Positions 28,686 to 32,220 of a stretch of DNA of 43,310 bases are shown piece by piece; within the stretch, counting starts at the first letter, position 1, and each line of letters starts with the position of its first letter. The DNA is from Candidatus Bathyarchaeota archaeon (GTDB lineage: Archaea; Thermoproteota; Bathyarchaeia; Bathyarchaeales; DTEX01). The notes beneath the pieces are model-generated. The model did no database searches and had not been told where the DNA came from. It saw only the letters and a program-made list of their open reading frames with translations. The stretch spans positions 1-43,310 of the forward strand of contig PIYB01000003.1 in NCBI GenBank assembly GCA_003601835.1, written 5' to 3'. A program made the position numbers and the translations under genes.

Positions 28686-28929
28686 GTCCGCTCACACCTT
28701 ATTTCATGTTTTCTTTTTCTGTTCAGCTGCTGATGATCTTCAAACTGTTCACCGCTAACAAATATGTAAAGGAACTGGAGCATGCTCTGAGAGGCTAGAA
28801 ACCAGATCATGCACTCTTTCAAAGTCCCATTAAACACACGGACGAAGCGATAGATTTCCTCTTTACACCTCGATACCGCGCCTACATCCATATGAGAAAT
28901 AAGCGAAGGAACTGAACCGGAAGTTTGAT

Positions 28930-29019
28930 GCGGCCGCCGGGATTTGAACCCGGGTCGTCGGCTTTCCTCTCTTTCAAGAACGGGAGGCCGGCGTCCTAAC
29001 CATGCTAGACTACGGCCGC
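28930..29019 (-). tRNA. tRNA-Gly(CCC) with a short intron
   Basis: Minus strand. The acceptor GCGGCCG pairs with CGGCCGC, the D-arm is GTCT ... GGAC, and the T-arm is CCGGG TTCAAAT CCCGG. The anticodon arm is CCGGC, then CTCCCG, about 17 extra bases, A and GCCGA. The anticodon is CCC at 28982-28984. After intron removal the tRNA is 73 nt. The anticodon stem has one C-A mismatch at 27-43. No CCA is encoded. A TTTAAA box 26-31 bases upstream fits its promoter. Confidence 0.9.
28964..28980 (-). other. Intron of tRNA-Gly at canonical position 37/38
   Basis: 17 nt between G37 and A38. CTCC of the loop faces GAGG of the intron in a 4-position helix with one mismatch. Three-base bulges CG-T and AA-A flank the cuts, and a small TCT/AGA intron stem has a TGAA loop. 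The exact boundary could shift by one base (36/37). Confidence 0.65.
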
Positions 29020-29625: not shown

Positions 29626-30336
29626 TTGCCGTTGAGAAGTTCGTGGGAAAGACTTATCGAGGGCCTTGTGAGAAGCCGCATACTCAAATCTGACCATGTC
29701 ATTAGGGCAATGAAAATGGTTCCGAGGCACATCTTCCTTTCGCAAGGCGACCGGTCCTATGCATCTATTGACGCGCCGCTTCCAATAGGCGGGGGGCAGA
29801 CCGTTTCAGCGCCACTCGGTTGATCCATGCGGTTAACCGGGCGAAACATGGTTTCAATAATGAATGAAGCCCTCAAGCTGGAGAAAGGACTTAAGGTCTT
29901 GGAGATTGGGTCTGGATGCGGCTGGCATGCTTCAACGATCGCTGAGATTGTTGCGCCGAGCGATGCGCATAAGGAAGAATGGGGCCATGTTTACACGGTT
30001 GAGATACTGCCGGAGCTCGCTGAGTTCGCTCGGAGGAACATAAAACGCGCTGGGTATGATGAAAGGGTAACCGTTATCTGTGGGGATGGGTCTAAAGGTT
30101 ATCCTCCGCAGGCGCCGTATGACCGAATCTCAGTGACGGCGGCTGCGCCTTATGTTCCTCCGCCGCTTAAGGAACAGTTGAAGCCGGGGGGAATAATGGT
30201 CATTCCTGTTGGAACGGTTGGGTTTTATCAGACGCTTTTGCGGCTTACGAAGGTCGATGACAAGTGTCTGGAGGAGGATTTAGGCGGGGTTGCTTTTGTT
30301 CCACTCGTCGGAAAACATGGTCATAAAATCTATTAA
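29626..30336 (+). CDS. pcm: Protein-L-isoaspartate O-methyltransferase, interrupted by a candidate BHB mRNA intron
   Basis: Repairs isoaspartyl residues using S-adenosylmethionine. Exon 1 has the family start (RSRILKSDHVIRAMKMVPRH, IDAPLPIGGGQTVSAP). Exon 2 continues MVSIMNEALKLEKG, the SAM motif VLEIGSGCGWHAS, YTVEILPELAEFA and LKPGGIMVIPVG. Between them lie 30 bases (29816-29845) with an in-frame TGA at 29821. Removing them gives SAPHMVSIM, exactly the conserved family sequence, and a normal 226-residue protein. Without splicing the product would stop after 65 residues. The start is TTG 29626 or TTG 29632, and GGGGG upstream favours the second. A coiled-coil membrane protein and rpiA follow on the same strand. 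Confidence 0.9.
29816..29845 (+). other. Candidate protein-coding intron with bulge-helix-bulge motif
   Basis: Exon/intron central helix CGCC (29810-29813) with GGCG (29840-29843), 4 bp. Bulge ACT (29814-29816) on the 5' side and bulge AAA (29844-29846) on the 3' side. Intron helix CGGTT (29817-29821) with AACCG (29835-29839), 5 bp, and a 13-nt loop. Cutting after the second base of each bulge (AC^T, AA^A) removes 30 nt and joins CCA-C to AC-ATG, reading P-H-M. The outer exon helix is weak (only one clear pair next to the bulge), so the motif is of the relaxed kind. Confidence 0.82.
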
Positions 30337-32114: not shown

Positions 32115-32220
32115 GCTGGGGTAGCCTAGCCTGGCTTGGGCGCCAGACTCATAATCTGGAGAACTCTCCACACGTAAAAAAAGGGTCCAGAAGTCGCGGG
32201 TTCGAATCCCGCCCCCAGCA
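32115..32220 (+). tRNA. tRNA-Met(CAT) with a non-canonical intron in the variable loop
   Basis: Acceptor GCTGGGG pairs with CCCCAGC (discriminator A). The D-arm is GCCT ... GGGC, the anticodon arm CCAGA CTCATAA TCTGG, and the T-arm GCGGG TTCGAAT CCCGC. A 31-nt intron lies after the anticodon arm, and removal leaves a 75-nt tRNA with variable loop AGGTC. The elongator Met call is preferred; tRNA-Ile2 with modified CAT cannot be excluded. The anticodon stem lacks the three G-C pairs of initiators. TTTAAATT at about 32073 is a possible TATA box. Confidence 0.9.
32162..32192 (+). other. Intron in the variable loop of tRNA-Met
   Basis: A bulge-helix-bulge is visible: CTGG (32156-32159) with CCAG (32187-32190), bulges AGA (32160-32162) and AAG (32191-32193), and intron helix ACTC (32163-32166) with GGGT (32183-32186). 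Cutting AG^A and AA^G yields the variable loop AGGTC typical of archaeal tRNA-Met. Confidence 0.82.

Follow-up and report, generated by a model that had tools for sequence, protein, structure and literature searches.

The isoaspartate methyltransferase gene (pcm) of a Bathyarchaeia MAG is interrupted by 30 nt that, with high confidence, we interpret as a bulge-helix-bulge (BHB) intron of the relaxed HBh′ type, spliced out of the pcm pre-mRNA; cleavage and ligation are inferred, as no transcript data are available. The gene lies in a 43,310-nt stretch of DNA (the window), which is contig C24 of the genome (G000; 67 contigs, 1.25 Mb, 85% complete). A BHB intron had been proposed from the letters of the window alone, and this interpretation is now supported by compensated pairing in relatives, by a single split gene copy and by an available endonuclease, although RNA splicing itself has not been demonstrated.

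Read unspliced, the pcm frame opens at either of two TTG codons and is halted by the TGA of the insert (Table 1), while a second ORF of 169 residues runs from ATG 29827 to 30336. Leaving out the 30 nt fuses both ORFs into a PCMT of 224 residues, which matches PF01135 with an E-value of 4.2e-60 and aligns across the junction with archaeal PCMT structures (top chain 1jg1, GQTVSAPHMVAIM). Searching G000 revealed no second intact pcm, within the limits of an assembly that is 85% complete, the other matches being remote methyltransferases (E ~1e-7). The near-complete genomes G025, G028 and G050 each contain one pcm-like match, the split copy, and the refutation that an intact second gene could have provided has thus not materialized. 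The median dN/dS over 231 pairs of intron-bearing pcm genes is 0.095, with constraint observed on exon 1 as well as exon 2; by this measure, the pcm exons are under purifying selection. These data bear on the possibility of a split gene or pseudogene, in which exon 1 would be a non-functional remnant and exon 2 would be translated alone from an internal start. ATG 29827 is suitably placed for such a start, but exon 1 supplies the conserved N-terminal region of PCMT and is selected like exon 2, and a covarying BHB together with 98 frame-breaking inserts at one codon (see below) would be left unexplained. We consider this explanation very improbable.

Table 1. Positions of the pcm exons and of the predicted BHB elements in the window.
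Feature	Positions	Strand	Description	Basis
pcm exon 1	29632..29815	+	start TTG 29632 or TTG 29626; ends ...SAP plus base 1 of the His codon	translation
pcm exon 2	29846..30336	+	from base 2 of the His codon through stop TAA	
Predicted BHB intron	29816..29845	+	30 nt; in-frame TGA 29821-29823	sequence; 98 distinct homologous introns, all at one codon
Central helix, 5′ strand CGCC	29810..29813	+	in exon 1; Ala codon bases 2-3 and Pro codon bases 1-2	
Central helix, 3′ strand GGCG	29840..29843	+	inside the intron	4-bp helix
5′ bulge ACT	29814..29816	+	predicted cut after C29815	3-nt bulge; middle C in 98/98
3′ bulge AAA	29844..29846	+	predicted cut after A29845	3-nt bulge; third base A in 98/98
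Intron helix, 5′ arm CGGTTGATC	29817..29825	+		covariation of arms among introns
Intron helix, 3′ arm GGTTAACCG	29831..29839	+		two-sided compensatory changes on the tree

The anatomy is observed directly in the sequence. The stop-containing 30-nt interruption, the 4-bp central helix and the two bulges all lie where the sequence-only reading had placed them, and joining the exons after the second base of each bulge yields SAPHMVSIM, as it had claimed. Its 5-bp intron helix (CGGTT/AACCG) is a real pairing, but was given too short: nine pairs, including two G:U, enclose a 5-nt loop (29826-29830). The minimum found by single-sequence folding (MFE) includes identical central and intron helices. 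The outer exon helix is as weak as had been suspected, with one invariant G-C pair followed by two pairs that are not conserved, and the strict hBHBh′ criterion of an exon-side outer helix is not met. Because of this weak helix, we assign the intron to the relaxed HBh′ type, an accepted BHB subtype (PMC6379350). Group I or II introns and inteins were rejected, since the inserts are frame-breaking and only 21-48 nt long and Rfam returned nothing but tRNAs over the window. One of the tRNAs in the window (32115-32220, plus strand; 106 nt; anticodon loop CTCATAA, Met, CAT) was found by Rfam and missed by ARAGORN, and has an apparent intron of ~30 nt; a tRNA-Gly(CCC) of 91 nt on the minus strand (28929-29019) has one of ~16 nt after the anticodon.

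One hundred relatives were searched with the joined Pcm protein, and their loci were then read one by one. The gene is split at the same residue in most genomes of the same family and in many of the same order, and is uninterrupted in others. In all, ~100 genomes, from Bathyarchaeia and from three further families in the phylum, are interrupted at one His codon (C|AC of SAPHM), giving 98 distinct intron-bearing sequences. All 98 would break the frame if retained, because many of the lengths are not multiples of three and the remainder hold an in-frame stop. Excision of the BHB-defined segment, with the cut between bulge bases 2 and 3, produces the codon CAC in every case (98/98). The first bulge is (A/T)C(A/T/G) and the second (A/T)NA. 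Of the central helices, 89 read CGCC/GGCG and 7 CACC/GGTG, so that 96/98 are entirely Watson-Crick; one of the other two has a G:U pair and the other, L004, an A:C mismatch. The shortest introns, at 21-22 nt with an intron helix of 4-5 pairs, belong to family f10 (L166-L168, L315, L317) and are close to a minimal BHB intron. Alignment to relatives, which had been suggested as a check, thus finds the interruption at the same codon and the BHB pairing conserved and compensated. The same comparison disposes of an assembly error or a recent short insertion element: the window does belong to a fragmented MAG, but diverged homologous inserts occur at the identical codon in ~100 assemblies, single-contig genomes among them, and this explanation is already refuted by the aligned loci.

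Two kinds of covariation are observed. In the central helix of the 7 CACC/GGTG sequences, the Ala codon has changed synonymously from GCG to GCA and the intron has changed to match, which, judged from the aligned sequences, is exon-intron compensation. On the within-class tree, compensated change at this pair was counted three separate times, and family f34 contributes four more sequences. In line with this, the Ala codon shows constraint at its synonymous site, being mostly GCG where the intron is present (88/91 intron-bearing versus 17/39 intron-less Bathyarchaeia pcm genes, p=1.6e-11, not corrected for relatedness). For the intron helix, the splice sites dictate the register, and no fitting was involved. 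Its first four pairs are 98.5% paired, a figure that falls to 73.8% (sd 1.3) once the 3′ arms are exchanged at random between introns. Mapped onto the gene tree, six pairs of this helix account for 53 two-sided and 51 one-sided canonical-to-canonical changes; when the partner is displaced by 1-3 bases, a control that preserves relatedness, only 1-9 two-sided changes are left.

These constraints also help to weigh translational bypassing, in which the ribosome would hop the hairpin without any splicing, as in phage T4 gene 60 or the yeast mitochondrial byps. An insert that forms a hairpin and contains a stop in a conserved gene is what bypassing would present, and transcript data do not exclude it, none being available. 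Bypassing requires that take-off and landing codons match. In these genes, Pro (CCA/CCT) is the last codon left intact, the codon preceding the ATG is AAC, GAC, TAC or CAC, and the window has no intact His codon on either side. The two codons differ, and a hop starting at Pro cannot supply the conserved His that C|AC splicing makes in 98/98. The constrained 4-bp exon-intron helix with its 3-nt bulges is the signature of an endonuclease rather than of a hop, and we regard bypassing as highly unlikely.

Agreement of fold and repaired motif by chance, which the sequence-only reading had thought unlikely, was also addressed in G050, the complete 1.5-Mb genome of a relative, by scanning blindly for strong BHBs that fuse two abutting split ORFs. 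The top rank went to the pcm intron, and all other hits of this strict scan were near control level; site, bulges, central helix and codon are conserved while the sequence covaries, and the doubt about chance is borne out. A loose scan of the same genome gave 255 ORF-joining matches versus 228 with control geometry, and is therefore uninformative. Other top candidates were rejected: truD (400913) is intact in one frame, and the rest are unrelated neighbouring frames or gene pairs, such as a NifS-like/NifU-like pair.

A search with PF01974 identified two endonuclease subunits (alpha and beta) in most relatives. The alpha subunits retain the catalytic Tyr, His and Lys and are similar to the crenarchaeal catalytic chains 3p1z_B and 2cv8, while the beta subunits, including L001 of G000, are without the catalytic His. 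When the alpha subunits of relatives L173-L177 are aligned to A. pernix 3p1z, both K44 and R46 of the loop correspond to K; these Crenarchaea-specific residues of Aeropyrum are said to matter for relaxed substrates (PMC12397907). By homology, the relatives encode a crenarchaeal-type (alpha-beta)2 endonuclease with both subunits. The features that define a relaxed-specificity enzyme of this type are present in L173-L177; in G000, the enzyme was not found complete. Efficient removal of relaxed BHB introns has been ascribed to (alpha-beta)2 and epsilon2 enzymes only (PMC6379350), so the (alpha-beta)2 type fits the weak outer helix of the pcm intron. The expectation that a relaxed endonuclease would be needed, and that its subunits should be identifiable, is thus satisfied for most relatives and only in part for G000, in which beta was found and the catalytic alpha was not (85% complete); the incomplete assembly probably accounts for the missing alpha. 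The ligase RtcB is encoded in G000 (E=1e-176). The gene for L001 (C20) adjoins a hisS-like gene, an arrangement also seen in relatives L174 and L177.

We propose that the (alpha-beta)2 RNA-splicing endonuclease, whose normal role is tRNA maturation, would cut each 3-nt bulge between its second and third bases, and that RtcB would join the pcm exons. The His codon of SAPHM would be rebuilt, a full-length isoaspartate methyltransferase could be translated, and the released 30-nt intron would probably be a linear or circular RNA. Cleavage, ligation and intron fate are inferred in this scheme; the enzymes are observed at the level of the group. The same fold could instead serve as a regulated cleavage site for mRNA decay, given that a BHB within a 5′ UTR is a substrate of the Haloferax endonuclease (PMC7714728). 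A destructive cut, however, would not need the His codon to be rebuilt, and every lineage has an exact frame-restoring junction and a constrained exon 2; we see scarcely any room for this alternative. Several points still count against a BHB intron, namely the lack of conservation of the outer helix beyond one G-C pair, the absence of alpha from an 85% complete MAG, the L004 mismatch and the lack of RNA evidence.

The intron is present at this locus in 93 genomes of the class Bathyarchaeia and absent in 38. Wherever both exons are readable in the window's family, the intron is there. Families f6 and f8 mostly have it and f7 mostly lacks it; in other orders of the class, it is found in f10 (21-22 nt), f15 (30 nt) and f17 (48 nt). 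Outside the class, and within the same phylum, it was observed in families f33, f34 and f43 (L308-L314; G291, G263, G298, G305, G284, G262), and four of the sequences L308-L314 bear the CACC/GGTG central helix. It was absent from the pcm genes examined from Pyrodictiaceae, Acidilobaceae, Ignisphaera, Thaumarchaeota, Thorarchaeota, Methanosarcinaceae and bacteria. The main Bathyarchaeia clade of the pcm tree (118 rows, SH-aLRT 97) is largely intron-bearing. Gain and loss are evident on this tree, where intron presence needs 12 changes compared to 51 with shuffled labels (13 in a wider tree), at least 5 of the 12 being forced by well-supported branches. The simplest reading of these trees is an old gain followed by repeated precise losses. 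The intron probably dates back to the ancestor of Bathyarchaeia pcm, or beyond, and has been lost several times since; horizontal transfer of pcm on some deep branches is not excluded, the deep nodes being weak. Taken on comparative grounds, with splicing itself inferred in the absence of transcript data, the pcm intron is a real, ancient and repeatedly lost BHB pre-mRNA intron; its age, wide distribution and losses go beyond what the sequence-only reading could know.

A pre-mRNA intron in cbf5 of Crenarchaeota was reportedly described by Watanabe in 2002 and by Yoshinari in 2006. Yokobori 2009 also deals with this intron (PMC2738675). The pcm and cbf5 introns are both short BHBs in coding genes, often relaxed, with a predicted cut between bulge bases 2 and 3. 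Both follow base 1 of the codon for a conserved functional residue, are associated with a hetero-oligomeric endonuclease and show lineage-specific losses. The pcm intron is not a cbf5-type intron at the same locus: it lies in another gene, at the His codon of SAPHM, with a weaker outer exon helix and splicing that remains undemonstrated. Its hosts differ as well, being Bathyarchaeia and other families and not the Desulfurococcales-type pcm examined. Two relatives have an insert in cbf5 (L303, G021:C75; L304, G001:C8; minus strand of the loci) that splits G|AT of the GGTLD aspartate, the known crenarchaeal cbf5 intron codon (PMC2738675). The L304 insert is 30 nt long, with a CCTT/AAGG central helix and a GGGA/TCCC outer helix. 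Some genomes therefore hold both the classical cbf5 intron and the new pcm intron; in relative L302 (G025), the cbf5 intron is absent.

With archaeal pre-tRNA BHB introns (hBHBh′, HBh′/hBH), the pcm intron shares the 4-bp central helix, the two 3-nt bulges, the intron hairpin and the short length, but it resides in an mRNA, has no tRNA body and mostly lacks the outer helix. The BHB in the 5′ UTR of Haloferax volcanii HVO_1309 is likewise an mRNA substrate of the splicing endonuclease, but it lies in an untranslated region of a haloarchaeal mRNA and no codon is rebuilt (PMC7714728). According to that paper, from 2020, a BHB intron had been reported in just one other archaeal mRNA, that of cbf5. 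No pcm intron had been known to the sequence-only reading, and the open-access literature searched contains no report of one and nothing linking isoaspartate or Bathyarchaeota pcm with bulge-helix-bulge; a report in a subscription journal is not excluded. As far as we found in that literature, pcm is the second archaeal protein-coding gene, after cbf5, with a conserved intron in its coding sequence.

It is possible, though we think it unlikely, that the intron is kept for a function, such as control of the methyltransferase by the supply of endonuclease or RtcB, or a small circular RNA, and that coding BHB introns are ancient and under-annotated in Thermoproteota. That the cbf5 and pcm introns both follow base 1 of the codon for a conserved residue is relevant to the question of why introns of this kind are maintained. 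In a large part of an abundant archaeal class, annotation can easily mistake pcm for a broken gene. With a second case, ~100 genomes and dozens of compensatory changes, archaeal pre-mRNA splicing would not be the peculiarity of one gene, and the pcm introns offer a rich natural data set on intron gain, loss and endonuclease specificity.
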